This document shows, piece after piece, positions 25,076 to 51,252 of a stretch of DNA of 64,000 nt. The notes below the pieces were generated by a model. That model was not told the DNA's origin. It saw nothing but the letters and a program-made list of their open reading frames with translations, and searched no databases. The DNA comes from Vulgatibacter incomptus (lineage in GTDB: Bacteria > Myxococcota > Myxococcia > Myxococcales > Vulgatibacteraceae), in the NCBI RefSeq assembly GCF_001263175.1, contig NZ_CP012332.1, positions 986,001 to 1,050,000 of the forward strand, written 5' to 3'. Numbering within the stretch: position 1 is the stretch's first letter; each line of letters starts with the position of its first letter. The translations under genes and the position numbers were made by a program.

Positions 25076-25076
25076 G

Positions 25077-26199: not shown

Positions 26200-29100
26200 A
26201 TGATGTCCAAGCCGTGGTTCGCACGTAGTCTTGCCCTGGCCGTGCTCGCGGTCTCCGCCTGTGGCGGAAAACCCGACCTGAAAACCGTCGCGGATGGCGT
26301 GGAGATCGTCACGCTCGCGGCGAATCCTCCAACCGTCGCCGCAGGCGGACGCGTCGAAATCTCGTGGAAGACCCAGAACGCCGAGCATGTGGCGCTCGCG
26401 GCGAATGGCGCGCCGGTCGATCTCGCCGGTGCGCAGGCAGCGGACGGCAAGGTCTCGGTAGTGGTCGACGCCGAGACGGTGTTCGCCCTGGCCGCCACCG
26501 GGAAGACGCCGAGCGACGTCAAGACCCGCTCGGTCACGGTGCAGCTCGCCGGTGCTGGCGACCCGAGGATCGTCTCCTTCGCGGCGGACCCCGCCCTGGT
26601 GGACGAGGGCCAGAAGACGACTCTCACCTGGAGGACGGAGGGCGCCGAGACGATCCGCATCCTGGACGGCGCGCTGAACGTTGTCGACCTGGGCGGAGCG
26701 GCCGCGCCCGAGGGATCGGTGCAGGTCGCCGTTCCGGCCTCGACCACGTTCCGCCTCGTCGCGGAGAGCGGGACGAAGAAGGCCGAGGCCACCGCGTCGG
26801 TGAGGGTGAAAGGCACGCCCGTCGCGACGCTCACCGTCACCCCCGCGCGGATCGTCCACGGCGGATCCTCGACGCTGAGCTGGGAAGCGCAGGACGCCGC
26901 GTCGATCGAGATCGTCGACGATGAAGGCCAGACGGTCGTGGACAGCAGCACCCAGCTCACCGGCACCTTCGTGGTATCGCCCTCCTTCACCACGAGCTAC
27001 CGCCTCACCGCCGTGAACGGCTCGAAGCAGAGCGTCGCCAGCGCCGTCGTCGAGGTCGAGCCGAAGATCACCTCGTTCCTCGTGGACGATTCGTCACCGG
27101 CGGGCATCGGCGCGCCCAAGTCCCTCTCCTGGGAAGTCGGCGGCGCCCGCGAGGTGGAGGTCTCGAATCTCTCGGGCGTGACACAGACCTTCATCGGCAT
27201 GGCGGCGGCTCGTGGGACGGCGACGCTGCCGATGGGCTCCGACGGACGGTTCGAGCTGGTCGCGCGAAGCGGCTCCCTCGAGGCCCGGAAAGAGGTCTCG
27301 GCTGCGATCCTGCTCGAGCCCCGGATTGGAAGCTTCGCCGCGGAGCGGTCCACGCTGACGATCGGCGCCGACGGCCTGGCCACGGCGGTCCTGTCCTGGT
27401 CCGGCGTGGAGCGGGCCAGCCGGCTTCACCTCGTGGGCGAGACGGTGGGCGAGATCGCCGTCGACGGCAGCGCGGGCTCGGTCGAGGTCGCGCTCGAGGC
27501 CGACGAGAGCTTCACCCTCACCGCATCGAACGACTCGGGCGAGGTCAGCGCGAGCGCGACGGTGCGGCTCGTGCCGGCGGCGGCCATCGGCAGCTTCACG
27601 GCCCAGCCGGGACGGGTCGGGGCAGGGGAGTCGTTCGCGGTCTCCTGGACCACGACCGCCGCCACCTCGATCGAGCTCAGGCAGAACGGGGTCCTCGTTA
27701 CGACCGACGACGGCTCGCTCTCCTCGGGAACGGCCCATCTCGTCGCCGCCGTCGATTCCACGATCGAGCTTCGCGCGTTCAACGATGCGGGCGACTTCGC
27801 CACGCGAACGCTCTCCGTCTCCGTGGGCGCGCCGATGAACGGCGCCTTCTCCGCGACCCCGGCCCGGCTCTGGGTCGGCGGGACCGCGACCCTCGCCTGG
27901 AGGAACCTCGGTGGAACCTCGCTCTCCGTGAAGCGGGGCGGCGTGGAGATCTTCTCGACGGCCGACCTCGCTCGGATCGCCGAAGGCTCGCACACCGTCA
28001 TCGTCGACACCGCCGGGTCCACCACCTTTACCCTCGAGGTGAGGAACGGGGCCTCGCAGACCACGACCACCAGCGCCACCGTCGACGCCGGGACCGGCCC
28101 GCGGATCGCGTCGTTCTCCGTGGGACCCGCTCAGCTCCTGGCCGGCACCAACGTCAATATCTCGTGGCAGGCCAGCGACGATCCCAACGGCGTCGCGCCC
28201 GTGCTCTCGCTCGTGGACAATCGCGGTGGCACCTACACGATCCCCGCAGGCAGCTCCCGCGCGGGTTCGCTCCAGGCCCCCTTGAGCCAGGTCGGGGACT
28301 ACACCTTCACCCTGACCGCCAGCACGCCGAGCGCGGGCTCAACGCCGGTGAGCCAGTCGAAGACGGTCACGGTCGTCGGCATGCCCGCCGCGACGCTGGT
28401 CGCGACTCCGACGGTCTTCGACCAGGAGGTAGCGCCTTCGGTGACCCTGTCGTGGACGTCGTCGAACGCGGCCTCGCTGGTGCTCTACCAGCTCGATGCC
28501 GCCGGGGCCCCGATCACGCCGCCGCTCCAGACCGTCCCCGCGGCCAATCGAGCCAGCGGCAGCATGCCGGTGGTCCCGACCCGCGCCACCACCTACCGCA
28601 TCGTGGCCACCAACGCCCTCGGCAACTCGGTGAGCCCCGAGGCGACGGTCACCCTCGCGCCGACCCAGATCCTGACCTTCACTGCCACGGCGCCCACCTA
28701 TCCCGCGCCTCCGGCGCCGCCTACGGTGGCGGTCGTCGCCGGCGATCCGGCGACCCTCGCATGGACCACCAAGCGGGCCACGCGGGTCGAGCTCGATGTC
28801 GCCAGCGGTCTCCTCCTCAATCCTTCGACCAAGCCCTACGTCGACATCACGACCCTGGGCTCGACGCCGCTGCCCGTCTCGGTGGTTCCCGGCTTTGCCA
28901 CTGCGGCCGACGAGGGCTACGCGGATCTCGCATTCCCCGCCGGCTTCTCCTTCCCGTTCGGCGGGGTCGATCGGGCCTCCATTCGCGTCTTCACGAACGG
29001 CGTGGCGAGCTTCGATCTCTCTCCGCTGGCCAGCAGCACCAACACCTATACGAGCTCGGCGCTCGGTCCCGACTCGGCCAAGACCTGGGTCCACCTGGCT

Positions 29101-32100
29101 CCCTTCTGGGACGACCTCGTGATCGCCGACGCGGCCACCGGGATCCAGTGGCTGGGCGGATCGGACGCGGCCTCGGGGCTGCGCTACTTGATCGTCCAGT
29201 GGAAGGACGCGTTCTTCTTCAGCACGTCTGGCGTCAGCCTGAACTTCCAGATGGTGCTCTTCGAGGACGGAACGCACGAGTACCGATACGGCGCGATGAA
29301 CGGAGGCTCGTCCAACCAGACCCGAGCCAACGGGAGCCAGGCCGCCATCGGTACGCGGGTCAGCGGCACGGTCTTCAAGATGCTCAACGACACCGCCCGC
29401 GTCGAGGTTCCCGGCGGAATGGCGAACCGGTCCCTCGCCTTGAGCTATCCGCCTTCCCTGGACGTGAACGGGAGCTTCTCCTGGGTTCCGATGGGCGGGT
29501 CCGGAGTCGTGACCCGTACGGCCACGCTCACCGCACGAGGCAACTCGACCGCGACCTCGACCGTGACGGTCGCGGTGCATCCGCGCGCGACCGTCGCCGC
29601 GACGCCGCCCGCGCGTGAAGTGCTCCGCGGCGAGAGCTTCACGCTCGCCTGGACCAGCACGAACGCGACCGCGCTGGTGGTTCGCGATCAGTCGGGCGCG
29701 GCGCGCTGCACGGCGATCGGCGCCCAGATCGCCTCGGGCTCTTGTGTGCTGAGTGAGGCGACCGCCGGACGCCACGCCTACACGATCCGGGCGACCGGCG
29801 CCCTGGGCCACACCGTGGATCGCGTGGTCGATGTCCCCGTCTACCTCCCCTTCGGGATCGAGACCTTCGCTGTCAGCGCGCCTTCGATCGACTACGGAGG
29901 CAGCGTCACCCTCAACTGGGAGACGGGTGGCTCGAGCTCGATGACACTGACCGCGAACGGCGTCTCCATCGATCTGACCGGCAAGAGCCCGGCGGCCGAC
30001 AGCCTCGTGCACGCGCCGCAGAAGACGACGACCTACGTGCTCACCATCGAGGCCTCCGACGGTCGCACGCGCCAGGAGTCCCGCACCGTGACGGTCCGCA
30101 CCGTCGACCTCGGCGTCGTGGCGTCCGCCGACAACGTCATTCCCGGTACACCGGTCACGCTGACCTGGACGGGCACGTCCCTCGTGCCCGGCGCGGACGT
30201 GACCATCCTCGCCCCGACGCCGATGGTCCCCGTCACCTCGGCTTTCGTGGATATCAGCGCCGATCCGACCGCGACCCGGATCATCGCCCCGAACCCCAAC
30301 ACCGACGACCTCTGGGGGAGCGTGGACCTGCGGACCGCGGCGCCTGGCTTCGTCTTCCCCTACTTCGGCGAGAGGTACGAGAAGCTCCGGGTCGGGATCA
30401 AGGGGGTCATCTCCTTCGATTCCACGCTCACGGGGGGCTATTTCTACAACAACTTCACGATGCCGAAGGCCGACGTCGGATCCAACCTGTACAGCCGCGT
30501 CGCCCTGGCTCCGTATTGGGGCGACAGCCGCACGCGAGCGGTGGGAACCGATACCGGAGTCGTCACCAAGTTCGTCTCGGGCGGCTCCGGTCCGGATCAT
30601 TTCATCGTCCAGTTCCATCACCTCAAGATGGACGGGACCGGAAATGACACCGTGGACGTGAGCTTCCAGGTCGTCCTCTTCGCGGACGGCTCGTTCGAGT
30701 ACCGATACGGCGCGATGGGACCCGTGAGCAACGCGAGCGCACAGGGCGGAGCCAAGACCATCGGTTATCAGATGCCGGGCGCTCTCATGGGCTACACGGT
30801 CTTCTACGGGGGTCCGTTCACCTCGAGTCCGGCCGCCGCTCTGGCGTTCCCGGGCGGGATCTCGAACAAGGCCTTCCGTTGGGAGCCCGTGGACCCCGGT
30901 ACGACCAGCATCGTGGTCCAGCCGTCGGCGACCACGGACTACACCATCTGCGCGATCGTCGACGGACACCGGGAGTGCAGGACGGTAACGGTCCACGCCG
31001 ACTTCGTCATCGACTCGTTCGCGACGAGCTCGGCGACGATCAACCGGGGTCAGACGGTGGACCTCACCTGGGCCACGAAGGGCGCGGAGGCCCTCTCGCT
31101 GAAGGCCAACGGCGTCGAGATCGCGAACGGGTCGACCGTCGCCATGACCGCGGGGAGCCTGACGGTCGCGCCGACCACGACCACGACCTACGTGCTCGAG
31201 CTCCGGAACAACTTCCTCAACCGGACGATCACCTCGACCAAGACCGTGACGGTGAAGCAGTTCTCGGTCGGCCTGCAGGCCTCGGCGTCGAACGTGGTTC
31301 CGGGTGGTCCGGTCACGCTCTCGTGGACGGCGGGCATGTTCTCGGGAGACTCGATGGCCTTGACCACGCCGATGGCCGAGGTGACGTCGCCCTTCGTGGA
31401 TATCTCCGGGCAGCCCGGCGCTACCCAGATCATCGGCGCCGGTGCGGACACCACCATGGCCGATCTCCCCTTCGTCGGCGGGTTCACGTTCAATTATCTG
31501 GGGACCCCGTACAGCGGGGTGCGCGTGTCGACCGACGGCTTCCTGACCTTCGACGGAAGCGCGACCACGTCCTCGTCCAACTCCACGCTGCCGAGCTCGA
31601 GCAACAAGAAGGTGCACCTGGCGGCGTTCTGGAAGGACCTGCACACCCGCACGAACGGACGGGTCCATGCCCTCGCCACCCCGACCGAGGTCATCGTGCA
31701 GTGGAGCCGGATCAGCATGTACACCGGCTCCAGCGCGGCGGAGCACGACCTGAACTTCCAGATCGCGCTCCGGTCCGACGGCTCCTTCGAGTACCGATAC
31801 GGGACCATGGCGGGCCTCTCCGGTACGAACACCTCGTCGAGCTGCTACCCGAGCACCTGCGCGAACGAGGCCAACGCCTCCTCCGCCACCATCGGCTACC
31901 AGGATCCGACCGGCGTGGCCGGATACCTGCTCTACATGGGCGGCACGAGCAACTCGGCGAGCAACTTCCCCTTCGCGGGTGGCCTCTCGAACCGCTCGTT
32001 CCGGTTCACGCCGTCGGCCGGCTCCGGCTCCGTGGTCGTGAATCCAGGGGACACGACGGGTTACCGGATCTGCGCGATCTCGGGGACGTTCATCGAGTGC

Positions 32101-34353
32101 TCGGATCTCGTGACGGTCACGTCGGAGTGGAAGATCGTCTCCTTCGATTCGAACGCGACCCAGGTGGACGTGGGGCAGCCGGTCACGCTCTCCTGGGTAA
32201 CCACGGGCGGCGACGGCGTGCGTGTGACCGCGACTGCCGGAACCACGACGACACCGCTCGACGTGTCCAGCGCGGGCGTCTCGTCGGGTAGCGTCACGGC
32301 GTACCCGACCCAGACGACGACCTATACCTTCGAGCTCCGCTCCATGGGTCGAGGCAAGACCACGACGAAGTCCGTGACGGTCCGCACCGTCGGCGTCACG
32401 CTCGACGCGTCGACCACGACCGCTCTGCCGGGAGAGCCGGTGACCCTCACCTGGGATGTCAGCGGTCTCGACGGTGGGACACCGACGATGAGCTCCAACA
32501 TCGTGGCGCTTTCGGAGGTGACCACCGCCTACGAGGACGTCACCACCTTCGGAGGCACGTTGGTGACGGGCCTCGGGCTCGGCGCGTCGACGACCAACGG
32601 TCCCAACGCCACGGTCGCGTTCCCTGCCGGGTTCGCCTTCCCGTACTTCGGACAGAACTACGACCGGATCCGGGTCGGCAACCAGGGTGTCCTCTCGTTC
32701 GATACCTCCCTGGACGGCTACCGCTTTTCGAACTTCCAGTTCCCGTCGACCGACTCGAACGGGATCAAGGTCCACCTCGCGCCGTTCTGGGGTGACGTCC
32801 AGACCGCCGCGTCCGGGAGCGCCTCGCATCCGGACGGTGGCGTCTACACCAAGTTCGTCCAGGTCCCTGGAGGCGTCGACTACTTCATCATCCAGTACCA
32901 CCACCACCGGATCTACAGCGCTGCCGACGGCACGACCGACCTGAACTTCCAGGTCGTGCTCTTCAAGGATGGGACGGTGGAGTACCGCTACGCGGACATG
33001 CTCCCGCTCACCGGAAACAACCCCGTCCTGGGTGGGGCGAAGACGGTCGGCATCCAGAGGCCGGGCGGCGGCTGGGGACTCAACCTCCACTACGGCGGCG
33101 CCTACACCAGCACGCCGACGGCGAGTACGACGTATCCCGGCGGCTTCGCTCATCGCTCGTTCCGATTCGAGCCGCTGACCTCCTCGACCGGATCGCGGAC
33201 CGTCATTATGAACCAGACCACGACGTACTACGTCTGCGGTGGACAGAGCGGATACTCGGAGTGCAAGGAGGTCACGATCGTCGTTCCTTCGGCCGGCGCC
33301 TCGGCGATCACCGAGCTCATGCTGGATCCGGACGGCGGCCCCGGCGGACAGTGGTTCAAGGTCCGGAACCTCGACAGTCGTCCGCAGAACCTCGAAGGCT
33401 GGGAGCTGGTCTCCAACGCCGGAAGCTTCACGATCGGCTCGCCTCTCGTGATCCCGGCGGGCGGCTTCGCGACCTTCGCCGCGTCCTCCGCGGTCGGGTT
33501 CACCCCGAGCGCCATCTACGGCAACAGCCTCGCCCTCAGTCCGGCGGGTGACAGCCTCGCGCTGAAGGCCGGAACGAGGGTGATCGCCTCAGTCACCTGG
33601 GGCTCCTCCTGGACGATCCCCCACGGGACCACGCTCGTCCTCGACCCCAGCTACCAGAAGCGCGGGACGGTCTCCAACGACGCCGCCAACCGGTGGTGCG
33701 CCGGGACCGCAGAAGGGTCGCCCGGATCCCTCGGCAGGGGGTGCAGGTTCACCACCTACGACGTGGACCTCGCCTCGGCGGCTCCGGTGATCGACATCTC
33801 GACGATCGGCGCCCCGGTCCCAGGGATCACCGGCTACCTCACGAAGGGTGACGTCAGCCTGAGCTTCCCGTTCCCGTTCTTCGGCGGGAGCTCCTCCACC
33901 CTGGGCGTGAGCTCGAACGGCTTCGTCACCATGGCCGGCGGCCTGGCCGCTTCGTATTTCACGAACGCCTCGCTGCCGTCGACGTCCCTCCCGGCGAGCC
34001 TCGGGATCGTCGCCGGCTTCTGGACCGATCTGAACTTCGTCACCGGTCAGAGCTGGGCCAAGTACGCCGAGGTCACCCGGGGTACCAATCGAGTCGCGGT
34101 CTTCCATTGGTACCGGTGGAAGCCCAACAGCTCGAGCACCGGCGCCTACGTCTCCGTCCAGATCCAGCTTTGGGACAACGGCGACATCGTCACGCACCAG
34201 GTGGAGTCGTCCGGTGACACCACATATACGAAGGGAAGCTCGGCGACGATCGGGATCCAGGCGCCGGGGACTTCGAGCCCGGCCACGCTCCTGTACTCGT
34301 ACAACACGGCCTCGGTGGAGGCGGGTACCGTCATCCACTACCTCAAGAAGTAG
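26200..34353 (+). CDS. Giant Ig-like/nidogen-like/lamin-tail lipoprotein, copy 1
   Basis: The 2,717-aa predicted lipoprotein has signal MMSKPWFARSLALAVLAVSA, then Cys-Gly-Gly. The start at 26200 aligns with copy 2; the next ATG at 26203 is equally possible. About 17 Ig-like domains of 80-95 residues follow, each with a strand like VTLSWTT and an end like TTTYTLTA. Domains at about 825, 1303, 1688 and 2064 appear split: after the first half comes a beta module of about 200 residues (FPYFG, VGNQGVLSFD, HLAPFWGDVQT, NFQVVLFKDG, EYRYG), then the Ig half resumes. These inserts resemble nidogen (NIDO) modules. A lamin-tail domain (about 2369-2514, ITELMLDP, LEGWELVS) and a fifth, different nidogen-like module end the protein. 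Probably cell-surface or matrix; function unknown. Confidence 0.88.
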   Translation: MMSKPWFARSLALAVLAVSACGGKPDLKTVADGVEIVTLAANPPTVAAGGRVEISWKTQNAEHVALAANGAPVDLAGAQAADGKVSVVVDAETVFALAATGKTPSDVKTRSVTVQLAGAGDPRIVSFAADPALVDEGQKTTLTWRTEGAETIRILDGALNVVDLGGAAAPEGSVQVAVPASTTFRLVAESGTKKAEATASVRVKGTPVATLTVTPARIVHGGSSTLSWEAQDAASIEIVDDEGQTVVDSSTQLTGTFVVSPSFTTSYRLTAVNGSKQSVASAVVEVEPKITSFLVDDSSPAGIGAPKSLSWEVGGAREVEVSNLSGVTQTFIGMAAARGTATLPMGSDGRFELVARSGSLEARKEVSAAILLEPRIGSFAAERSTLTIGADGLATAVLSWSGVERASRLHLVGETVGEIAVDGSAGSVEVALEADESFTLTASNDSGEVSASATVRLVPAAAIGSFTAQPGRVGAGESFAVSWTTTAATSIELRQNGVLVTTDDGSLSSGTAHLVAAVDSTIELRAFNDAGDFATRTLSVSVGAPMNGAFSATPARLWVGGTATLAWRNLGGTSLSVKRGGVEIFSTADLARIAEGSHTVIVDTAGSTTFTLEVRNGASQTTTTSATVDAGTGPRIASFSVGPAQLLAGTNVNISWQASDDPNGVAPVLSLVDNRGGTYTIPAGSSRAGSLQAPLSQVGDYTFTLTASTPSAGSTPVSQSKTVTVVGMPAATLVATPTVFDQEVAPSVTLSWTSSNAASLVLYQLDAAGAPITPPLQTVPAANRASGSMPVVPTRATTYRIVATNALGNSVSPEATVTLAPTQILTFTATAPTYPAPPAPPTVAVVAGDPATLAWTTKRATRVELDVASGLLLNPSTKPYVDITTLGSTPLPVSVVPGFATAADEGYADLAFPAGFSFPFGGVDRASIRVFTNGVASFDLSPLASSTNTYTSSALGPDSAKTWVHLAPFWDDLVIADAATGIQWLGGSDAASGLRYLIVQWKDAFFFSTSGVSLNFQMVLFEDGTHEYRYGAMNGGSSNQTRANGSQAAIGTRVSGTVFKMLNDTARVEVPGGMANRSLALSYPPSLDVNGSFSWVPMGGSGVVTRTATLTARGNSTATSTVTVAVHPRATVAATPPAREVLRGESFTLAWTSTNATALVVRDQSGAARCTAIGAQIASGSCVLSEATAGRHAYTIRATGALGHTVDRVVDVPVYLPFGIETFAVSAPSIDYGGSVTLNWETGGSSSMTLTANGVSIDLTGKSPAADSLVHAPQKTTTYVLTIEASDGRTRQESRTVTVRTVDLGVVASADNVIPGTPVTLTWTGTSLVPGADVTILAPTPMVPVTSAFVDISADPTATRIIAPNPNTDDLWGSVDLRTAAPGFVFPYFGERYEKLRVGIKGVISFDSTLTGGYFYNNFTMPKADVGSNLYSRVALAPYWGDSRTRAVGTDTGVVTKFVSGGSGPDHFIVQFHHLKMDGTGNDTVDVSFQVVLFADGSFEYRYGAMGPVSNASAQGGAKTIGYQMPGALMGYTVFYGGPFTSSPAAALAFPGGISNKAFRWEPVDPGTTSIVVQPSATTDYTICAIVDGHRECRTVTVHADFVIDSFATSSATINRGQTVDLTWATKGAEALSLKANGVEIANGSTVAMTAGSLTVAPTTTTTYVLELRNNFLNRTITSTKTVTVKQFSVGLQASASNVVPGGPVTLSWTAGMFSGDSMALTTPMAEVTSPFVDISGQPGATQIIGAGADTTMADLPFVGGFTFNYLGTPYSGVRVSTDGFLTFDGSATTSSSNSTLPSSSNKKVHLAAFWKDLHTRTNGRVHALATPTEVIVQWSRISMYTGSSAAEHDLNFQIALRSDGSFEYRYGTMAGLSGTNTSSSCYPSTCANEANASSATIGYQDPTGVAGYLLYMGGTSNSASNFPFAGGLSNRSFRFTPSAGSGSVVVNPGDTTGYRICAISGTFIECSDLVTVTSEWKIVSFDSNATQVDVGQPVTLSWVTTGGDGVRVTATAGTTTTPLDVSSAGVSSGSVTAYPTQTTTYTFELRSMGRGKTTTKSVTVRTVGVTLDASTTTALPGEPVTLTWDVSGLDGGTPTMSSNIVALSEVTTAYEDVTTFGGTLVTGLGLGASTTNGPNATVAFPAGFAFPYFGQNYDRIRVGNQGVLSFDTSLDGYRFSNFQFPSTDSNGIKVHLAPFWGDVQTAASGSASHPDGGVYTKFVQVPGGVDYFIIQYHHHRIYSAADGTTDLNFQVVLFKDGTVEYRYADMLPLTGNNPVLGGAKTVGIQRPGGGWGLNLHYGGAYTSTPTASTTYPGGFAHRSFRFEPLTSSTGSRTVIMNQTTTYYVCGGQSGYSECKEVTIVVPSAGASAITELMLDPDGGPGGQWFKVRNLDSRPQNLEGWELVSNAGSFTIGSPLVIPAGGFATFAASSAVGFTPSAIYGNSLALSPAGDSLALKAGTRVIASVTWGSSWTIPHGTTLVLDPSYQKRGTVSNDAANRWCAGTAEGSPGSLGRGCRFTTYDVDLASAAPVIDISTIGAPVPGITGYLTKGDVSLSFPFPFFGGSSSTLGVSSNGFVTMAGGLAASYFTNASLPSTSLPASLGIVAGFWTDLNFVTGQSWAKYAEVTRGTNRVAVFHWYRWKPNSSSTGAYVSVQIQLWDNGDIVTHQVESSGDTTYTKGSSATIGIQAPGTSSPATLLYSYNTASVEAGTVIHYLKK

Positions 34354-34379
34354 CCGGTCGAATTGAAGATGGGGCGAAC

Positions 34380-34427
34380 GGGCCCCCTGGCGCGAGCAGG
34401 TCTCGGGCCAGGGGGCCCTTCGTTTTT
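34380..34427 (+). terminator. Terminator of giant gene 1
   Basis: GGGCCCCCTGGC (34380-34391) and its perfect complement (34407-34418) form a 12-bp stem, followed by TTCGTTTTT. It begins 27 bases after the stop codon. Confidence 0.88.
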
Positions 34428-34634
34428 GAAGCGGCTGTCAGGATTTTCCATTTCGCGCGCCGCAGAACTTGCAAGCCATCGAGATCTCGATGGATTCGAA
34501 TGCATGAAACTTTCTGTGTTGCGTGAAGTTATCTGTGTTTCAAATCTTGTTGCGCGTTGAGACCGGGTCTGCTCGGATTCGCTGCTCTGAAGTGGATTCT
34601 TGGTTTTTTGAATTGTCTCGCAACGAGGTCGGAG
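34428..34634 (+). promoter_or_regulatory. Leader and presumed promoter region of giant gene 2
   Basis: This AT-richer stretch holds two direct repeats TCTGTGTT (34513-34520 and 34532-34539, start-to-start 19 bp, about two helical turns) nested between TGAAAC (34505-34510) and GTTTCA (34537-34542). Such an arrangement could bind a dimeric regulator. GAGG at 34625 and GGAG at 34631 precede the ATG. No clear -35/-10 pair was found. Confidence 0.45.
34476..34493. promoter_or_regulatory. Perfect 18-bp palindrome upstream of giant gene 2
   Basis: CCATCGAGATCTCGATGG is self-complementary over all 18 bases with no loop, so it is more likely a protein-binding site than a transcript hairpin. It lies 142 bp upstream of the start codon. 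Confidence 0.4.
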
Positions 34635-37600
34635 ATGACGTCGAAGTCCTGGTTTGCAGGTTTTCTGGTCGTGGCGGCGTTGGCCGCCTCGGCATGTGGG
34701 GGTGGCGGTAAGGACCCCGTGAAATCCACGGCGGAGCGCGTGGAGATCGTCGATCTGATCGCGACACCCGAGCGTGTGGAGGCTGGCGCCAGCGTCGAGG
34801 TCTCTTGGAAGACGAAGCACGCCGAGTCCGTCGCGCTCACGGCCAACGGCGCGCCCGTCGAGCTCGGTGATTCGTCGGCCGAGGGCGGCGCGGTCTCCGT
34901 CGTGGTCGAGGCCGAGACGGTCTTCGAGCTCACCGCCACCGGCAAGGAGGCGGACGACGTCGCGACCCATCGGGTCACGGTGAAGCTCCTCGGCGACCAG
35001 CCGGAGATCCTCTCGTTCACGGCCAATCCCAGCGAGGTGGAGCAGGGGGATCAGACGACGATCTCCTGGAAGACCCACGGCGCCGACACCATTCGCCTCC
35101 TCGACGGCGCGCTGAACGACGTGGATGTCGGCGGGCAGCCGGCGGCAGAGGGCTCCGTGACGGTGCAGGTCTCCACCTCGACGACCTACAAGCTCGTGGC
35201 TTTGAAGGGCGAGGAGTCTGCCGAGGCGACCGTGGTCGTGAAGGTGAAGGGTGCGCCCACCGCGACCCTGACCGGCCCGGCGCAGATCGACCATGGCCAG
35301 TCGGCGACCCTTCGGTGGGAGGCCACGGACGCGGACTCGGTCTCGATCGTCGACGACGAGGATCGGATCGTCGTCGCGAGCACCACCGAGTTCAGCGGCT
35401 CCATCGTCGTCTCTCCGTCCTTCACCACAACCTATCGACTCGTCGCAGTCGGCAACGGCAAACAGGCCATCGCGTCCGCCATGGTCGCGGTGAAGCCCGT
35501 CATCACCACCTTCGAAGCCACCGACTCCGCGCCTGTCGCCGTCGGAGCGCCGAAGTCGCTGGTCTGGGCAGTGGGCGGGGCCCGCGAGGTCGAGATCTCC
35601 AACCTCTCCGGTGAGACGTCGACCTTCACGGGAGACGAAGCGGTGCAGGGTGCCGACTCGATGCCCGTTGGCGTGGATGGGAGGTTCCGTCTCGTGGCTC
35701 GCAGCGGCGCCCTCGAGACCAGCCGGGAGCTCACCGTCGAGATCCTCACCACTCCGGCGATCAGCAGCTTCGAGGCGGCGCGTCCGATCCTGACCGTCGA
35801 CGCCGAAGGCCGCGCCACCGCCACCCTCACGTGGTCCGGCGTGGCGGGCGCGACGCGGCTGCGGCTCGACGGCGAGGGCATCGGCTCCATCGACATCGGC
35901 GATCAGGGCCTCCAGGGAGGCTCCGTGGACGTGGTGCTCGAGGCCGACGAGACCTTCACCCTCACGGCGTCGAACGACTCGGGCGACGTGGCCGCAACCG
36001 CGACGGTACGCCTCGTCCCCGAAGCGACGATCGTCGCCTTCGGTGCCGCGCCGGTACGGGTGGGGGCCGGGGAGCCTTTCGTCCTCTCGTGGGTCACCGC
36101 CGGCGCCGTCTCGATCGAGCTACTCCGGGGCGGCGAGCTCGTCCCGACCGAGGTCGACGCGGTCGCCTCGGGTGAGGTGGAGCTGCAGATCGCCTCGGAT
36201 TCGGCATTCGAGCTCCGCGCGTACAACGGGGCGGGCGACTTCGCCTCGAGCGTGCTCGCGGTCACCGTCGGCGCACCTGTGAACACCTCGTTCACCGCGA
36301 CGCCGGACCACCTCTGGGTGGGTGAAACGGCCATTCTCGCTTGGCAGAACCTCGGCGGGACCTCGCTCTCCGTGAAGCGGGGCAGCGTCGAGCTCTGCGC
36401 CACCACTGTACTCGCCGAGGTCGCCGACGGCACCTGCCTCGCCACCCTCGACCAGGAGGGGAGAGCCACCTTCACTCTCGAGGTGATCAACGGGGCAGGG
36501 CAGAGGACCTCTGCGTCCGTCACCGTCGAGGCCGGGACGGGCCCGCGGATCGCGTCGTTCTCAGTCGGGCCTGCGCAGCTCCTCGTCGGCACGAACGCGA
36601 CGATCTCGTGGACCACGACGGACGATCCCGACGGAACCACGCCGACCCTCGCCCTGGTGGACGATCGCGGCGGAAGCTATTCGATCCCGGAGGGAAGCGA
36701 GCACCAGGGATCGCTACCGGCCGTCCTCGCCGAGGTAGGTGACTACACCTTCACGCTCACCGCGAGCACGCCGAGCCTTGCCTCCACCCCCGTGAGCCAG
36801 TCGAAGACGGTGACCGTCGTCGGCCTTCCGGCCGCCACCCTGGTGGCATCGCCGGTGGTCTTCGACACCGACGTCGCCGACCACGTGACGCTCTCGTGGA
36901 CCTCTGCGAACGCCGCGTCGCTGGTCCTCTACCAGCTCGACGGCAGCGGGAATCCGATCACGCCGGCGCTCCTCACGGTTGCCGCAGGCGACCGGTCTGC
37001 CGGCAGCTTCCCCGTCGTGCCGGCCCGCGCAACGACCTATCGGATCGTGGCGACCAACGCCCTGGGCAACTCGGCGCAGGCCGAGGCCTCGGTGACCATC
37101 GCGCCGCCCGAAATCCTGAGCTTCACCGCGGAGCCCCTCGAAGTTGTCGCGGGCGACCAGGTGACGTTCGAGTGGACCACCAAGATGGCCACGGGCACTT
37201 CGCTCAGCGTGTTCGAATCCGGGCTCACGTTCGGCGAGTCGGAGGATTCCTACGTCGATATCAAGGCCAACGGCGGGACGTTCCTTCCCCTCTGGCAGTG
37301 CAACAGCACCTTCGAAACCAACGACCAGGGGTGCGCGACGCTCTCCTTCCCGTCCGGGTTCACCTTCCCCTTCGGCGGCGCGGATCGCAAGGCGATGGTC
37401 GTCTATGTGAACGGTGTGGTGAGCTTCGACCTGGCCCGGACCGGCAACAGCTATTCGACCACCACTTTCCCCACGACGAGCTCGACCTACCACTACGCCC
37501 ATCTCGCGCCCTTCTGGGTCGATCTGAGGTTCCTGCCCCCCTCCACCGTCGGCGACATCTGGTACAAGCTCGGCTCGGATGACCGGGGCCGGTATCTCAT

Positions 37601-42725: not shown

Positions 42726-42752
42726 GGATCGTTCACGAGTGACGCTCGAAAC

Positions 42753-42793
42753 GAGGGCGCGAGATCCCTGGGTCTCGCGCCCTCTTGCGTTTT
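42753..42793 (+). terminator. Terminator of giant gene 2
   Basis: GAGGGCGCGAGA (42753-42764) pairs perfectly with 42773-42784, and TTGCGTTTT follows. The arm sequence is almost the same as that of the hairpin after giant gene 3, so the terminator belongs to the duplicated unit. Confidence 0.85.
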
Positions 42794-43084
42794 GACCTCG
42801 GCACGATCACCGGAAGCGGATCCGCTCGTCGGGTGGCGGGGAAGGGGGCGAATGAAAAATTGGATTAGAAACGGAGGCGCCACCGGTACAACTTTCTTGC
42901 ACGTTGCCGGTCGGCCAAGACCGTGAATTCGCGCGGCAATCAGATTGAGGTCCGAAATTCAATATGCTTCTAAAGCAAAACGTTTGCCATGGATCTGTTG
43001 CAGTCCTGCCGATTCCCTGCTTGATTCGTCCTCCTCACGCACCCCCGGTTTCGCAGTCTGGTCTCAAGAACGAGGTAGGCGCAG
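42794..43084 (+). promoter_or_regulatory. Leader and presumed promoter region of giant gene 3
   Basis: This region is again AT-rich in its central part. It contains the hyphenated palindrome GCAAA-ACG-TTTGC (42975-42987) and ACCGG/CCGGT arms about 20 bases apart near 42890. GAGGTAGG lies about 5-10 bases before the start codon. No clear -35/-10 pair was recognised, and it does not visibly share the palindrome found before copy 2. Confidence 0.4.
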
Positions 43085-46000
43085 ATGTTGAAGATCTGGC
43101 GTACGAGTTGTCTTGCCCTGATGGCGCTCGCCGTCTCGGCCTGTGGAAGCAAGGACACGGGTCAGGCGCAGGAGCCTGGCGATGTCGAGATCGTCGCTTT
43201 CGTCGCGCGCCCGGACCGAGTCGAGGCGGGCGGTAGCGTTGAGGTCTCCTGGGAGACGACGAACGCCGACCGCCTCTCGCTGACCGCCAACGGCGGTGAC
43301 GTGCAGCTCGGCGCAGCCGCCATCCAGGCGGGCTCCGTCTCGGTGGTCGTCGACGTTGAAACCACCTTCGAGCTGACGGCCACGGGGAAGAAGGATGGCG
43401 ACGTCAAGACTGCCACCGCCACCGTAAAGATCCTCGGAGACGCGATCGAGATCCTCTCGTTCACCGCGAACCCGACCGAGGTGGAGGAGGGGAAGGAAAC
43501 GACGCTCTCCTGGAAGACCCACGGCGCGGAAGCGATCCGTATCGTTGACGGCGCACTCAACGAGGTGGACCTCGGCGGCCAGGCGGCGCCGGAGGGCTCC
43601 GTGAAGGTGGCCGTCGCAAGCTCGACGACCTTCAAGCTCGTGGCGTCGAAGGGCGAGGAGAAGGCGGAGGCGACCGTCACGGTGAAGGTGAAGGGTTCTC
43701 CCGTCGCCAACCTGAGCGCCGATCCGGCGAGGATCGTCCACGGCAGCACCTCGACCCTGACGTGGCAGACGGAGGACGCCGTGTCGGTCGCGATCGTGGA
43801 CGAGGAGGACCGGCCCGTCTTCGAGAGCAGCACGCAGCTCAGCGGGACCTTCGAAGTGACGCCCTCGTTCACCACGACCTACCGGCTCACCGCGATCGGC
43901 GCCACGAAGCAGGCCGTCGCTTCTGCGTTCGTCGAGGTGGCGCCGAAGATCGTCTCCTTCGCTCCGGTGGATCCCTCCGCCGCCGGGGTCGGCTCTCTCA
44001 AGGCTCTCACCTGGGTGGTAGGCGGCGCCCGCGAGGTCGAGGTCTCGAACCTCGCCGGTGTGGCCCAGACCTTCACCGGTGACGAAGCCGCGCAGGGATC
44101 CGTCTCGCTGCCCATGAGCGCGGACGGCAAGTTCAAGCTGGTGGCCCGGAGCGGAACCCTCGAGGCGTCGAGCGAGCTGACGATCGACATCATGCTCGAA
44201 CCGGTGATCGGCAGCTTCGAGGCTGCGCGCCCGGTGCTCACGATCGGCGACGACGGACAGGCGACGGCGGTGCTCTCGTGGTCGGGCGTCGAGCGGGCGA
44301 TCGGGCTTCGGCTGGTCGGCGAGAACCTCGGCGAGATCGCCATTGGCGGTGACGCCCTCGTCTCTGGCTCGGTGGAGGTGGTGCTCCAGGCCGACGAGAC
44401 CTTCACTCTCATGGCTTCGAACGAATCCGGCGACGTTGCCGCCACCGCCGCGGTTCGGCTCGTTCCTGCGGCGGCGATCGAGTCCCTGGCCGCGCTTCCG
44501 GGCAGGGTTGGGGTAGGGGAGGCCTTTACTGTCTCGTGGGCGACCACCGGCGCCACCTCGATCCAGCTCAGGCAGGACGGTGCGGTCGTCGCGACCGCCG
44601 ACGATGCGGTCGCCGCTGGCGCGGTCGAGCTCGTTGCCGCCACCAACTCGGCGATCGAGCTCCGGGCGTTCAACGACGCGGGCGACTTCGTCTCGAGGAC
44701 CCTCACCGTCACAGTCGGGGCTCCAACGAACACCTCCTTCACCGCGACTCCGAATCGCGTCTGGGTCGGCGGGACCGCCACCCTCGCCTGGCAGAACCTG
44801 GGCGGCACGTCGCTCTCCCTGAAGCGGAGTGGGGAGGAGATCTTCGCGACGACCGATCTCACGCGGATCGCCGACGGCTCCTACCTCGCCACGATCGAGA
44901 CGGCCGGCTCCTCCACCTTTACCCTCGAGGTGGTAAACGGCGCATCGCAGCGCACGACCGCGTCCATCGTCGTCGACGCAGGGACCGGTCCGCGGATCGC
45001 GGCGTTCTCGGTCGGGCCCGCGCAGCTCCTGGTCGACACGAATGCCACGATCTCGTGGCAGACCACCGACGATCCGGACGGGGCCACGCCCGTCCTCTCT
45101 CTGACGGACGACCGGGGTGGTACCTACCCGATTGCCGCCGGAAGCGAGCACGCCGGGTCGCTCCAGCGTGCGCTGGGCCAGGTCGGCTCGTACACCTTCA
45201 CGCTCACCGCGAGCACGCCGAGCGCGGGTTCCACGCCGGTGAGTGAGACGCGTTCGGTCACGGTTGTCGGAGTCCCCGCGGCGACGCTGGTGGCGACGCC
45301 GCAGGTCTTCGACACCACGGTGGCGCCCACCGTGACGCTCTCGTGGACCTCGGCAAACGCCGAGTCGCTTCTGCTCTACCAGCTCGATGGCAGCGGCGCG
45401 CCCGTCACGCCCGCGCTCCTCACGGTTCCCAGGAGCGATCGCGCCAGCGGCAGCTTCCAGGTCGTTCCGGCCCGGGCTACCACCTATCGGATCGTGGCGA
45501 CCAACGCCCTCGGCACCTCGGTCTCGGCCGACGCGAGCGTGACGATCGCTCCGCCCGAGATCCTCAGCTTCACCGCGACTCCCGTCGAGGTCCTCGTGGG
45601 CGATGGAGTGACGCTCGAGTGGACCACCAAGATGGCCTCTGGCGTTTCGCTGAGCGTTCTCCCCGGCGGGCTCGTCTTCTCGGAGACCTCGGCGCCGTAC
45701 ATCGACGTCCAGGCGGCAGGCGGCACCAAGCACGACCTGACCCAGACCTGGAGCACCCTCACGACCAACGACGAGGGGTTCGACATCTTGACGTTCCCGG
45801 GCACCTTCAGGTTCCCGTTCGGCGGTCAGACCTACAACCGCATCATGATCTACGCGAACGGGATCGCCAGCTTCGATTTCGGCCGCACCGGAACGATATC
45901 GAGCTTCAGCAACACCAACTTCCCTTCGGGGACGACGAGCCCCTGGGCGCACATCGCGCCGTTCTGGGACGATCTCTTCTTCCCCAACAGCGCGACGAAT

Positions 46001-49000
46001 GGAAACGTCTACTACCTCCTGAGCTCGGACGCGGAGGGAGAGTTCCTCGCCATCCAGTGGAAGGGCATCACCAACGCCGCCGCCGGAACGGACAATCTCA
46101 ACTTCGAGATCCTCCTGAGGCCAGACGGGACGTTCGAATACCGCTACGGTCCGTGGATCCGGGGCGGGGCGTCGCAGGGCTGGGTCGACGGCAACAGCGC
46201 GACCATCGGGTACCAGTTCCCGGATCAGAGCGGGTATCACGTCTTCAGCAAAGACACCGCGGTGCCCGGCGGCCTCGGGGGCCGGAGTTTCCGCTACTCG
46301 CCGCCTCCCTCCCTCTCGCCGAACGACAGCTACGTCTGGACTCCGGCCGGCGCTGGCAGCAAGACCGTCACCCTGACCGCTCGGGGAGAGGGGACCGCGA
46401 CGGCGACCGTGGACGTCATCGTCCATCCGAGGGCCACGCTCTCGGTGACGGCACCCTCTGGCGAGGTGCTGAGGGACACGAATTTCACCCTCTCGTGGAC
46501 CTCTACCAACGCCACCTCCGTCGAGGTGGTCGACTCGTCCGGCACGGTCCGGTGCTCGGCGGCCTCCAGCCAGATCGCGTCCGGCTCTTGCGTGCTCTCG
46601 GAGGCGACGGTCGGGGAGCACCAGTACACCGTCCGGGCCGCGGGGGCGCTCGAGTCCGTGGTGGAGCGCGTGGTCCGGATCATCGTGTACCCGCCCTTCG
46701 AGCTCGTCGACTTCACCGTGAGTGGCACCCAGCTCGAATACGGAGCCGTTGTCACCCTCGCCTGGGAGACGAGCGGCGCGACCTCGATCACCTTGTCCGC
46801 GAACGGCGTCGAGCTCGACCTCACGGGCAAGGACATCGACGGCGACTCGTTGATCCACGTCCCTCAGCGGCCGACCACCTACGTCCTCGCGATCGAGGCC
46901 GCCGACGGTCGCATCCGGACGGCGACGAAGACGGTCACGGTGCGGACGCTGGACCTCTCCGTCGACCCGGTCGCTGCCGACGTGTCGCCCGGGACCCCGG
47001 TGACGTTGAGCTGGACGGCGACTTCCTTGTCGGGCGGGACCGCACGCGTCTACGCGCCGTCGCCGATGGAGGACGTCACGTCGTCGACTGCGTTCGAGGA
47101 CATCAGCTCGATGCCTGGTGTGGCGACGCTGATCGCGGGTGGATTGGACACCACGACCGTCACGGTCGACTTCGGAGGCCGCTTCTCGTTCCCGTTCTTC
47201 GGTCAGCGCCGCACGGCTGCTCGCGTCTCGACAGACGGCGTGATCTCGTTCGATACCGCCTCGACGGCCTTTTTCACCAGCAACCAGCCGATCCCCAACG
47301 ACGGTACCTCCAACCGGCTGGCCCACCTCGCCGCGTTTTGGGATGATCTCCACACTCGGACGAGCGGACGGGTCCACAGTCTGCGGATCGACGACGATAC
47401 CTACGTCGTCCAGTGGACCCATTTGAGCCCCTTCGCGGGCTCGTCGAACACGAACCAGTACGACCTCAACTTCCAGGTTGTCCTCCACTCGGACGGCACC
47501 TTCGAGTACCGATACGGAACCATGGCGGCGCCGGCCAGCACCTCGTCCAGCTGCTTCCCCTCTACCTGTGTGAACGAGGCGAACGGATCCAGCGCGACGA
47601 TCGGATACCAGGACCCGACCGGGCTGATGGGCCACCAGCTCCACTTCGGCGGTACCTCCGGCGCGGCGGGCAACCCGACCTTCCCTGGGGGCATCGCCAA
47701 CCGTGCGTTCCGCTACCAGCCTGCCGCCGGCGTCGGGACGACGACCATCGTTCCGGCCAAGACCGGCGACTACACGATCTGCGCCGAGGTCGACGGTTAC
47801 ATGTCTTGCCAGACGGTCCATGTGACCGCCGACTTCGAGATCTCGTCCTTCGTGACGAGCGCAGCGAACGTCAACCGGGGCCAGTCCGTTGACCTCTCGT
47901 GGACCACGAAGGGCGGGGATGAGCTCACCATCAAGGCAAACGGTACCGTGATTGCCGACGGGACGACCGTCGGCATCTCGGCGGGCGTCCTCCCGCTCGT
48001 TCCGACGGAGACGACGACCTACGTGCTCGAGCTCAAGAACCGGTTCCTCAACCGGACCGTCACCTCTTCGAAGACCGTCACGGTGAAGCAGTTCGGGCTC
48101 TCGGTCGGGGCGTCGGAGGCGTCCGTCAATCCAGGTGGGGCGGTCACGATCTCCTGGAACGCTGACATGTACTCCGGCGGGAACTACGCGCTGACCACTC
48201 CGATGACCGAGGTGGCGTCGGCGTTCGTGGACCTCTCTGCGGATTCCGCTCTTCAGCCGATCATCGGCGCTGGTGCGGACTCCACCATGGCCAACGTCCC
48301 CTTCGTCGGCGGGTTCACGTTCAATTATCTGGGGACCCCGTACAGCGCGGTGCGCGTTTCGACCGACGGCTTCCTGACGTTCGACTCCAGCGCCACCACG
48401 ACCTCGAGCAACTCCACGCTGCCCAGCTCGAGCAACAAGAAGGTGCACCTGGCGGCGTTCTGGAAGGACCTGCATACCCGTACGAACGGAAGGGTCTACG
48501 CCCTCGCCACCGCGACGGAAGTCATCGTCCAGTGGAGCCACATCAGCATGTTCTCCGGCTCCAGCGCGGCGGAGCACGACCTGAACTTCCAGGTGGTTCT
48601 CCACGCCGACGGCTCCTTCGAGTATCGCTACGGAACCATGGCCGGGCTGGCCGCCCCGAACGTCTCGACGAGCTGCTTCCCGAACACCTGCGAGAACGAA
48701 GCGAACGCCTCGTCCGCCACCATCGGCTACCAGGATCCGACGGGAGTGGCCGGCTACCTGCACTACATGGGCGGTACGAGCAACTCCGCCAGCAACTTCC
48801 CGTTCGCGGGAGGCCTCTCGAACCGCTCGTTCCAGTTCTCGCCGTTCAATGGTTCGGGCTCGGTGGTCGTGAATCCCGCGGATACGACGAGCTACCGGAT
48901 CTGCGCGATCTCGGGCGCCTTCATCGAGTGCACCGACGTGATCACGGTCCAGTCGGAGTGGAAGATCGTCTCCTTCGGAGCGAGCACGGCGTTGGTGGAG

Positions 49001-51172
49001 CCCGGTCAGCCCGTCACGCTCTCGTGGGAGACCACCGGCGGTGACGACATCCGCCTGAGCGCCACCACGGGGGCAGCGACCCGGCAGTTCGACGTGTCGG
49101 GCCTCTCCATGTCCTCCGATACCTACACGGACAACCTCCCCGGGCACACGACCTACAACTTCGAGCTGTGGTCGATGGGCCGGGTCAAGAGAGCGACGAA
49201 GTCCGTCGTGGCGCGAAACGTGAGCGTCGGACTCCAGGCGTCGCCGACCACGGTCGGCGCTGGCCAGCCGGTGACGCTCTCGTGGGACGCCGCCTCGAAC
49301 ACCGGAGATGCGCCCGCCCTGACGGGCAACTTCCTCGTCTCGGAGGTGAGCTCACCCTACGAGGACATCACGACATCGGGCGGAACGCTGCTGTCCGAGC
49401 TCGGACTCGGCGTGTTGACGACCAGCGGTCCCTACGCAATCGTCGACTTCTCCGCTAACGGTTTCACCTTCCCGTACTTCGGCGGCCGGTTCACCCGGCT
49501 CAAGGTCGGCAACCAAGGCGTTCTCTCGTTTGACGAAACCTTGTCCGGCTCCCGCTCGAGCAACCTCCAGCTCCCGACCACCGATACGAACGGGGTCAAG
49601 GTCCAGTTCGCTCCGTTCTGGGGCGACGTCCAGACCGCGGCGGCTGGTAGCACGGCCCATCCGGATGGCGGCGTCTACGCGAAGTTCGTCTCGGAGCCCG
49701 GCGGAATCGACCACTACATCATCCAGTACCACCATCACCGGATTGGCAGCGCCGCCGACGGCGCCACCGATCTGAACTTCCAGGTGGTCTACTTCGCGGA
49801 CGGCGCAGTGGAATACCGTTACGGAGACATGCTCCCGCTCACCGGAAACAACAGCGTTCTGGGCGGTTCGAAGACCATCGGCTTCCAGAGGCCCGGTGGC
49901 GGCTGGGGCCATAACATCCACTTCGGCTCGAGCTCGACCACCACCTTCGCCGGCGGTTTCGGACATCGGTCGTTCCGCTTCGAGCCCCTCGAGTCGACCG
50001 GCTCCAGGCTCGTGACCCCGACCAAGACTACGACCTACAACCTGTGCGCGACCGTGTCTGGTTACACGGAATGCAAGGAGGTCACGATCTTCGTCCACGA
50101 CGTCGGGTCCGTGGTGATCACCGAGCTCATGATCGATCCGGCGGGCGGTTCGACGGCGCAGTGGTTCGAGATCCAGAACCTGAACTCGATCCCGATCGAC
50201 CTCGATCGCTGGGTGATCGAGACCTCCAGCGGATCCCACGTGATCCAGGGACCGGTCGTGATTCCCGCGTTTGGCTTCGCGACCCTCGCCGCCTCTCCCA
50301 GCGTCGGGTTCACACCGAGCTACGTCTACGGCAATGGCGTCGCCCTCGCCGTGGGAGGTGATACGCTCCGGGTCAAGGCGTTTGGGTTCGCGACGGTGGC
50401 CTCCGTGACGTGGGACTCCTCCTGGTCGATTCCGTCGGGCTCGAGCCTGGGCCTCGATGGGAGCTATCTGGTCCGAGGCGTCCTCAACAACAATCCGGCC
50501 CAGTGGTGCACGGGGCCGGCTACTCCCGGAACGGCGGCAGTGGGCTGCCGCTTCACGGACTACAGCCTGAACCGATATGCGACGGTGCCGTTCATCGACA
50601 TCCGGGCGACCGGAACCACGGTCAGCGCGATGCGGGACGACTCAGGCAAAACCGGCCTCACGCTCCCGTTCTCCATGCCGATCTTCGGTTCGTCCACGAG
50701 CCAGATCTGGGTGGATGCAAACGGCTGGGTCTCGTTCGCTCCTACCCAGCCCTCGACGTCTCATTTCGCGCCGGACGCCCTTCCGCGGACGAGCACCGCC
50801 ACGCCCGCCGGTCCGCTGTTCGCCGCGTTCTATGACGACCTCGGCTGCACGCAGAGCGTTGGAACTTGGGACTGGCAGTACGAGCACCGCGTGATCGGCT
50901 CGAACCAGGTCACGATCCTGCAGTGGAACAACTTCAATCGCTGCAGCAACACCGGCGGGACGACGTTCCAGATTCAGCTCTCGTCCAACGGCGACATGGC
51001 GGTGGTCTTCGGCAACATCGTGGCGGCCGCGGGCACCTCGGCCTGGAACATCTACAACGGTTCGAGCGCGTGGATCGGCCTGGAGGGACCGGATCGGACG
51101 CGGCCCATCACGGCGCTCTACAAGACCGTCGAGCCGCTCTCCGGCAGGGCCTTCCAGTTCACCAAGAAGTAG
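43085..51172 (+). CDS. Giant Ig-like/nidogen-like/lamin-tail lipoprotein, copy 3
   Basis: The 2,695-aa third paralog has signal MLKIWRTSCLALMALAVSA before the lipobox Cys (followed by Gly-Ser-Lys). The layout follows the others: Ig-like domains, split Ig/nidogen-like units at about 826, 1290, 1670 and 2045, lamin-tail domain at about 2344-2476 (ITELMIDP, IDLDRWVIET), and a C-terminal module at about 2503-2695 of the copy-2 type. The second insert (about 1336-1544) is not the type found there in copies 1 and 2. It carries SSCFPSTCVNEANGSSATIG and the VSTDGVISFD strand, like the third insert of all copies. No catalytic residues are apparent. Probably a surface or matrix lipoprotein. Confidence 0.88.
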   Translation: MLKIWRTSCLALMALAVSACGSKDTGQAQEPGDVEIVAFVARPDRVEAGGSVEVSWETTNADRLSLTANGGDVQLGAAAIQAGSVSVVVDVETTFELTATGKKDGDVKTATATVKILGDAIEILSFTANPTEVEEGKETTLSWKTHGAEAIRIVDGALNEVDLGGQAAPEGSVKVAVASSTTFKLVASKGEEKAEATVTVKVKGSPVANLSADPARIVHGSTSTLTWQTEDAVSVAIVDEEDRPVFESSTQLSGTFEVTPSFTTTYRLTAIGATKQAVASAFVEVAPKIVSFAPVDPSAAGVGSLKALTWVVGGAREVEVSNLAGVAQTFTGDEAAQGSVSLPMSADGKFKLVARSGTLEASSELTIDIMLEPVIGSFEAARPVLTIGDDGQATAVLSWSGVERAIGLRLVGENLGEIAIGGDALVSGSVEVVLQADETFTLMASNESGDVAATAAVRLVPAAAIESLAALPGRVGVGEAFTVSWATTGATSIQLRQDGAVVATADDAVAAGAVELVAATNSAIELRAFNDAGDFVSRTLTVTVGAPTNTSFTATPNRVWVGGTATLAWQNLGGTSLSLKRSGEEIFATTDLTRIADGSYLATIETAGSSTFTLEVVNGASQRTTASIVVDAGTGPRIAAFSVGPAQLLVDTNATISWQTTDDPDGATPVLSLTDDRGGTYPIAAGSEHAGSLQRALGQVGSYTFTLTASTPSAGSTPVSETRSVTVVGVPAATLVATPQVFDTTVAPTVTLSWTSANAESLLLYQLDGSGAPVTPALLTVPRSDRASGSFQVVPARATTYRIVATNALGTSVSADASVTIAPPEILSFTATPVEVLVGDGVTLEWTTKMASGVSLSVLPGGLVFSETSAPYIDVQAAGGTKHDLTQTWSTLTTNDEGFDILTFPGTFRFPFGGQTYNRIMIYANGIASFDFGRTGTISSFSNTNFPSGTTSPWAHIAPFWDDLFFPNSATNGNVYYLLSSDAEGEFLAIQWKGITNAAAGTDNLNFEILLRPDGTFEYRYGPWIRGGASQGWVDGNSATIGYQFPDQSGYHVFSKDTAVPGGLGGRSFRYSPPPSLSPNDSYVWTPAGAGSKTVTLTARGEGTATATVDVIVHPRATLSVTAPSGEVLRDTNFTLSWTSTNATSVEVVDSSGTVRCSAASSQIASGSCVLSEATVGEHQYTVRAAGALESVVERVVRIIVYPPFELVDFTVSGTQLEYGAVVTLAWETSGATSITLSANGVELDLTGKDIDGDSLIHVPQRPTTYVLAIEAADGRIRTATKTVTVRTLDLSVDPVAADVSPGTPVTLSWTATSLSGGTARVYAPSPMEDVTSSTAFEDISSMPGVATLIAGGLDTTTVTVDFGGRFSFPFFGQRRTAARVSTDGVISFDTASTAFFTSNQPIPNDGTSNRLAHLAAFWDDLHTRTSGRVHSLRIDDDTYVVQWTHLSPFAGSSNTNQYDLNFQVVLHSDGTFEYRYGTMAAPASTSSSCFPSTCVNEANGSSATIGYQDPTGLMGHQLHFGGTSGAAGNPTFPGGIANRAFRYQPAAGVGTTTIVPAKTGDYTICAEVDGYMSCQTVHVTADFEISSFVTSAANVNRGQSVDLSWTTKGGDELTIKANGTVIADGTTVGISAGVLPLVPTETTTYVLELKNRFLNRTVTSSKTVTVKQFGLSVGASEASVNPGGAVTISWNADMYSGGNYALTTPMTEVASAFVDLSADSALQPIIGAGADSTMANVPFVGGFTFNYLGTPYSAVRVSTDGFLTFDSSATTTSSNSTLPSSSNKKVHLAAFWKDLHTRTNGRVYALATATEVIVQWSHISMFSGSSAAEHDLNFQVVLHADGSFEYRYGTMAGLAAPNVSTSCFPNTCENEANASSATIGYQDPTGVAGYLHYMGGTSNSASNFPFAGGLSNRSFQFSPFNGSGSVVVNPADTTSYRICAISGAFIECTDVITVQSEWKIVSFGASTALVEPGQPVTLSWETTGGDDIRLSATTGAATRQFDVSGLSMSSDTYTDNLPGHTTYNFELWSMGRVKRATKSVVARNVSVGLQASPTTVGAGQPVTLSWDAASNTGDAPALTGNFLVSEVSSPYEDITTSGGTLLSELGLGVLTTSGPYAIVDFSANGFTFPYFGGRFTRLKVGNQGVLSFDETLSGSRSSNLQLPTTDTNGVKVQFAPFWGDVQTAAAGSTAHPDGGVYAKFVSEPGGIDHYIIQYHHHRIGSAADGATDLNFQVVYFADGAVEYRYGDMLPLTGNNSVLGGSKTIGFQRPGGGWGHNIHFGSSSTTTFAGGFGHRSFRFEPLESTGSRLVTPTKTTTYNLCATVSGYTECKEVTIFVHDVGSVVITELMIDPAGGSTAQWFEIQNLNSIPIDLDRWVIETSSGSHVIQGPVVIPAFGFATLAASPSVGFTPSYVYGNGVALAVGGDTLRVKAFGFATVASVTWDSSWSIPSGSSLGLDGSYLVRGVLNNNPAQWCTGPATPGTAAVGCRFTDYSLNRYATVPFIDIRATGTTVSAMRDDSGKTGLTLPFSMPIFGSSTSQIWVDANGWVSFAPTQPSTSHFAPDALPRTSTATPAGPLFAAFYDDLGCTQSVGTWDWQYEHRVIGSNQVTILQWNNFNRCSNTGGTTFQIQLSSNGDMAVVFGNIVAAAGTSAWNIYNGSSAWIGLEGPDRTRPITALYKTVEPLSGRAFQFTKK

Positions 51173-51197
51173 CGACGGTCGTCACCCGACCGAAAGC

Positions 51198-51229: not shown

Positions 51230-51252
51230 GCGCGCTTCCCGGAGATCGGTGC

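Follow-up and report, generated by a model that had tools for sequence, protein, structure and literature searches.

Three consecutive genes on one strand of DNA from the soil myxobacterium Vulgatibacter incomptus, here designated A, B and C, encode giant lipoproteins in which tandem immunoglobulin (Ig)-like domains are combined with nidogen-like (NIDO-like) modules and a lamin-tail-like domain (LTD). We regard these proteins, with a probability of roughly 0.55, as outer-membrane-anchored modular stalks for attachment or contact; their location, lipidation, fibre shape and adhesive role are all inferred.

The three genes and their surroundings

Within the window, i.e., the whole stretch of 64,000 nucleotides that was analysed, gene A occupies positions 26200–34353 (2,717 aa, 280 kDa), gene B positions 34635–42725 (2,696 aa) and gene C positions 43085–51172 (2,695 aa), all as intact open reading frames on the forward strand, separated by 281 nt (A–B) and 359 nt (B–C). 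The first-pass annotation had reported three consecutive same-strand giant genes with lipoprotein signals, and both points were confirmed. A signal peptide followed by a lipobox was found in all three proteins (VSAC in A and C, ASAC in B), and the lipobox cysteine (C21 in A and B, C20 in C) agreed with the PROSITE-type pattern. The +2 residue is glycine in each protein, and sorting to the outer membrane is therefore predicted by the Lol rule of Escherichia coli.

Pairwise identity was 63% (A/B), 59% (A/C) and 63% (B/C) at the protein level, and 71%, 68% and 70%, respectively, at the DNA level. Repeats this large can be misassembled, and several family genes lie at contig ends in the draft genome of another genus of the same family (G001). 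However, the copies are only 68–71% identical in DNA, their longest identical run is 65 nt and the host assembly is a single contig of 4,350,553 bp, which contradicts the suspicion that the trio is an assembly artefact or a collapsed or expanded repeat; we consider this explanation extremely improbable. An assembly duplicate was excluded by the divergence among the copies at both the protein and the DNA level. A, B and C are old paralogues. Their whole-gene dN/dS values are about 0.41–0.50, and purifying selection is indicated. Long open reading frames were also observed opposite the trio on the reverse strand (28339–33153, 1,604 aa; 36714–42440, 1,908 aa; 43064–49147, 2,027 aa); these are to be expected where G or C fills roughly 90% of third positions, and they were not counted as genes.

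Each gene had been credited with its own terminator-like hairpin. Hairpins on the forward strand do follow A (34370–34432, −46.0 kcal/mol, z −5.9), B (42745–42796, −33.6 kcal/mol, z −6.6) and C (51190–51245, −40.5 kcal/mol, z −4.3), and those 3' of A and B carry a short T-rich tail; the strong hairpin after C has no T run and is therefore weaker as a terminator. Comparison of the upstream leaders of the three genes revealed no significant similarity.

The trio lies downstream of gap, pgk and tpiA (22791–25844, forward strand) and is followed by an AMP-binding gene (51253–52800, reverse strand), secG (52903–53292, forward strand) and tRNA-Leu (GAG) (53431–53515, forward strand). The block gap-pgk-tpiA-secG-tRNA-Leu(GAG), with secG directly after tpiA, is intact in G001 and also, over the part that was read (which starts at the end of gap), in a genome of family f10 in the same class (G163). 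Between 25844 and 53515 of the window, the trio and the AMP-binding gene split tpiA from secG. In G001, a family gene that begins immediately downstream of tRNA-Leu is cut off by the contig end; a second contig begins inside a family gene and continues with the genes found on the right-hand side of the window. These G001 genes thus share the neighbourhood of the trio but lie at a different point in it. A mobile-element origin of the trio was considered because of the adjoining tRNA-Leu, but no integrase was found among the flanking genes examined.

Domain architecture

In A, the order is lipobox, Ig1–9, Ig10(N1), Ig11–12, Ig13(N2), Ig14, Ig15(N3), Ig16, Ig17(N4), LTD and N5, in which N1–N5 are NIDO-like modules and parentheses denote a module inside an Ig-like domain. 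Each protein therefore has about 17 Ig-like domains, four inserted NIDO-like modules, an LTD-like domain and, at its end, a fifth NIDO-like module. The claim that domain order matches among the three proteins held throughout the chain, except that A ends in another type of terminal module than B and C. Ig and NIDO profiles were built from the trio proteins themselves, the Ig profile being trained on these repeats; they identified nine full Ig-like domains at the start of each protein, further full ones interspersed with the modules, and NIDO-like modules numbering five per protein. By alignment, 13 full tandem Ig-like repeats of about 85 residues, of beta-sandwich type, were counted per protein in addition to the split ones.

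All modules are encoded on the forward strand. N1 lies at 28825–29457 in A, 37245–37844 in B and 45689–46315 in C, and N2 at 30235–30900, 38619–39281 and 47084–47734, respectively, with the N2 of C resembling that of G001, unlike those of A and B. N3 (31384–32022, 39762–40400 and 48215–48853) is the best kept module among the three proteins (79–82% aa identity) and is followed by N4 (32521–33192, 40896–41546 and 49349–49999). The C-terminal region consists in A of the LTD (33289–33741) and an N5 (33742–34350) of a type also found in G001, and in B (41646–42722) and C (50096–51169) of an LTD-like domain and the B/C form of N5. Differences among A, B and C are strong in N1 and N5; N5 of A is 34% identical to that of B or C, and the B and C modules share 69%.

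The only confident Pfam families in the trio were NIDO (PF06119, in A) and LTD (PF00932), the latter above the 34.3-bit cut-off in A (35.4 bits), just under it in B (33.5 bits) and under it in C (28.7 bits). NIDO matched 13 of the 15 isolated modules (best E 7.1e-08), the best stretch being confined to roughly the first quarter of the profile. Against a 25-bit cut-off, whole A scored 55.6 bits and its N3 alone 30.8 bits; whole B and C gave no NIDO match, and most of their isolated modules matched at E ≤ 1. A curated Pfam Ig family was reached for neither A nor C, the Pfam search returned no MIDAS/VWA or RTX match, and NCBIfam, Rfam and PDB sequence searches with the trio gave no match. Beyond the common module match, the NIDO modules here are nested in Ig-like domains of bacterial lipoproteins, and the LTD, which precedes the terminal module, is not accompanied by a nuclease or other enzyme domain.

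The NIDO-like modules are read as inserts within Ig-like domains because Ig matches are split around many of them, the part before the module reaching to about profile position 38 and the part after it resuming near position 44, and because an alignment of nine Ig-Ig(NIDO) units breaks at the same point. Such splitting was seen at Ig13, Ig15 and Ig17, pooled over the three genes, and at the first module in the related proteins P0005, L051 and L061. The half-Ig matches are individually weak (E 5e-08 to 0.6), the strongest second half being that of the paralogue P0005 (E 5e-06), and second halves went undetected at Ig10 in all three proteins, after N2 in B and C, and after N4 in A. When modelled with AlphaFold2, a single Ig-Ig(NIDO) unit was all-beta (mean pLDDT 77, pTM 0.71), with pLDDT mostly above 90 in the first Ig-like domain. 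In Foldseek, the matches at probability 1.00 were Ig/FnIII tandem modules (CbhA, titin Z1Z2) over parts of the model; whole-model TM-scores were poor (0.14–0.22), with no good whole match. The C-terminal model was unreliable (pLDDT 54.6). In N3 plus the second half of Ig15 (Ig15b) of A (31384–32127), we also observed a close cysteine pair within N3 (C1882/C1887) and another in the split Ig (C1958/C1967), and both may form disulfides.

Evolution within the trio and sets of three in other genomes

Segment trees with AU tests, in which a G001 protein served as outgroup, gave conflicting sister pairs: A and C in Ig1–9 (alternatives p = 0.03 and 0.02, only just significant), A and B in Ig13–N2 (p < 0.001) and in LTD (p about 0.01), and B and C in N5 (p about 1e-5); silent sites by themselves did not show these three sister relationships (p = 0.36). 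In A and B, the N2 units cluster with the N4 units (support 99/98), as would result from a past copying of N4 into N2 in both genes. In Ig15 plus N3, 57% of the four-fold silent sites are identical across the three genes, compared with 21–44% elsewhere (p = 1.6e-5); the 65-nt identical run of A and B lies at the end of this tract, and A/B dS is 0.04 in Ig15b. From the conflicting trees, the grouping of N2 with N4 and the excess of identical silent sites, we read the trio genes as mosaics formed by module exchange, with gene conversion in N3. Diversification among the copies is supported by the conflicting trees, with one tract homogenised, whereas two suggestions of the first-pass annotation did not gain support: phase-like diversity, as a search of the trio returned no homopolymer of 7 or more, no SSR or microsatellite and no tandem array of note (one trivial 12-bp repeat), and plain redundancy, given the old divergence and the strong differences in N1 and N5. 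No invertible element or shuffling recombinase was found among the flanking genes run against Pfam. The number of Ig-Ig(NIDO) units after Ig11 also varies, being three in the trio, two in the 2,303-aa protein of G001 and one in a 1,910-aa paralogue from that same genome; therefore, units have been gained or lost within genes.

The family extends well beyond the trio. V. incomptus itself has at least four further paralogue loci, near 1.91, 1.94, 3.14 and 3.87 Mb, and the Ig-Ig(NIDO) unit matched at 1e-8 in 66 of 195 genomes of the phylum, V. incomptus included. Family genes are dispersed in G001, whose best homologue lies away from the tRNA-Leu neighbourhood and adjoins genes of poly(A)-polymerase type and F420-type oxidoreductase. 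One short paralogue with four Ig-like repeats (L058, G000:C1:1936000-1948000, about 5726–6931, reverse strand) may be a decayed family member, the wider match containing a TAA. Open frames of about 1,360–1,380 aa with a related NIDO-like module were also observed in Bacteroidales MAGs (L064, L065 and L067).

The first-pass annotation knew of no described parallel to the layout and proposed looking for the trio in related genomes; tandem trios of Ig/NIDO lipoproteins do exist in other Myxococcota. G163 has three tandem genes (1,905, 1,941 and 2,024 aa) that form a clade of their own (100/100), separate from the A/B/C clade (100/100), and the two trios therefore arose independently. Family f4 has seven complete loci with tandem arrays of exactly three genes, whose lipoproteins are about 1,100 aa long with five Ig and two NIDO; only 87–144 nt separate a stop codon from the first Ig codon of the following gene, a span that already contains the signal peptide. 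At an eighth f4 locus (L089, G116:C169:87000-106900), two trios follow one another and seem to have been duplicated together: gene 1 pairs with gene 4 and gene 2 with gene 5, and genes 3 and 6 are both placed with the position-3 members. Members group by position in the array across genera, with the minimum possible number of changes (2). The f4 trio thus seems to be ancestral and to have been retained, probably as an operon, the branches for positions 2 and 3 being weak (53/46 and 65/84). The array loci had been picked for multiple matches and are not a basis for the frequency of trios. Of the array proteins inspected from other genomes, only one fails to match a lipobox pattern. In all-against-all BLAST for a conserved partner gene near the arrays, no neighbour was common to more than three loci, mostly of f4 genomes.

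Possible function and relation to known systems

In the mechanism that we favour, each protein would be exported by Sec, lipidated at the lipobox cysteine and, given +2 glycine, sorted to the outer membrane. The chain of about 17 Ig-like domains would reach out from this anchor as a long stalk, bearing NIDO-like modules as side heads within Ig10, Ig13, Ig15 and Ig17 and ending in a tip composed of the lamin-tail-like domain and a NIDO-like module. The three genes would provide three versions of one fibre, differing in N1, N2 and the tip, with diversity kept by module-wise exchange and N3 partly homogenised. The likeliest job would be attachment, in cell–cell, cell–matrix or cell–substrate contact; no neighbour gene that names a function is conserved near the arrays.

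A different proposal, which we consider possible but distinctly less likely, is that A, B and C are subunits of one hetero-oligomeric fibre or coat, with three being functionally required. The seven f4 arrays of exactly three tight genes, the double trio of the eighth, the grouping of f4 members by position and the independent set of exactly three in G163 are all consistent with it. Against it, the trio genes form no obvious operon, being separated by intervals of 281 and 359 nt that contain terminator-like hairpins, A, B and C were duplicated within their own lineage and family genes are dispersed in G001; moreover, the position 2 and 3 branches of f4 are weak, and the array loci were preselected for several matches. 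Similarly tentative is the broader idea of three-part surface fibres in Myxococcota, made of position-specific Ig/NIDO lipoproteins, encoded as an operon in f4, re-invented as giant trios in Vulgatibacter and f10, and assembled into a hetero-trimeric organelle of contact or attachment.

That the repertoire serves recognition or kin discrimination, with variable modules matching partner cells as does TraA in Myxococcus, seems to us improbable: N1 and N5 are variable among the copies as opposed to about 80% identity in N3, and the segments have mosaic histories, but no toxin, immunity or traB-like gene was found among the flanking genes examined, and no hypervariable tract in a comparison that covers one strain. 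Slightly less probable still are periplasmic or envelope-spanning structural lipoproteins (spacers or scaffold) in place of surface adhesins. Ig arrays can also act as structural spacers, and the lipobox is accompanied by neither a type 1 secretion system (T1SS) gene nor another known surface-export partner among the flanking genes examined; on the other hand, about 17 Ig-like domains plus NIDO, if extended, would reach about 60–70 nm (taking an Ig domain as about 4 nm long), which exceeds the width of a periplasm.

The stalks that we propose have several known counterparts. The Mobiluncus 51-Ig adhesin and the RTX adhesins use other anchors or secretion routes than a lipobox. Together with SiiE, they are giant Ig-repeat adhesins (PMC10619420, PMC6272769, PMC7493085), which resemble the trio in having long chains of Ig-like or beta-sandwich domains extending from the cell surface; SiiE is reported to be secreted by T1SS (PMC6272769). 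The trio differs from them in its lipobox, nested NIDO, tandem threes and lack of a T1SS gene among the flanking genes examined, and from RTX/T1SS giant adhesins in having no RTX match and in being flanked by gap-pgk-tpiA, AMP-binding and secG genes. The MIDAS-family adhesins of Bdellovibrio (PMC11003981) are likewise an adhesin family of a bacterial predator; that paper mentions neither NIDO nor Ig-like domains, and the trio has no MIDAS/VWA match. TraA/TraB outer-membrane exchange (PMC5562445, PMC3325183) involves contact-dependent surface proteins of myxobacteria, with a variable domain in TraA; no TraA-like family was matched in the trio, and the likeness is one of idea only. A search on nidogen-like/NIDO and bacteria, with most subscription papers outside its range, yielded animal papers as judged by title or abstract, and no description of an Ig/NIDO lipoprotein family was found in the literature searched, an absence that is no proof of novelty. 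As far as found, the trio represents Ig-repeat, adhesin-like lipoproteins, a known kind, in which the nested NIDO and recurrent threes are seemingly undescribed.

Myxobacterial contact biology, such as swarming, predation and kin recognition, has been studied mostly in Myxococcus. The widespread and seemingly unstudied family reported here provides a concrete, testable list of candidate adhesins, and the V. incomptus trio may be taken as a natural example of how giant paralogues exchange modules.
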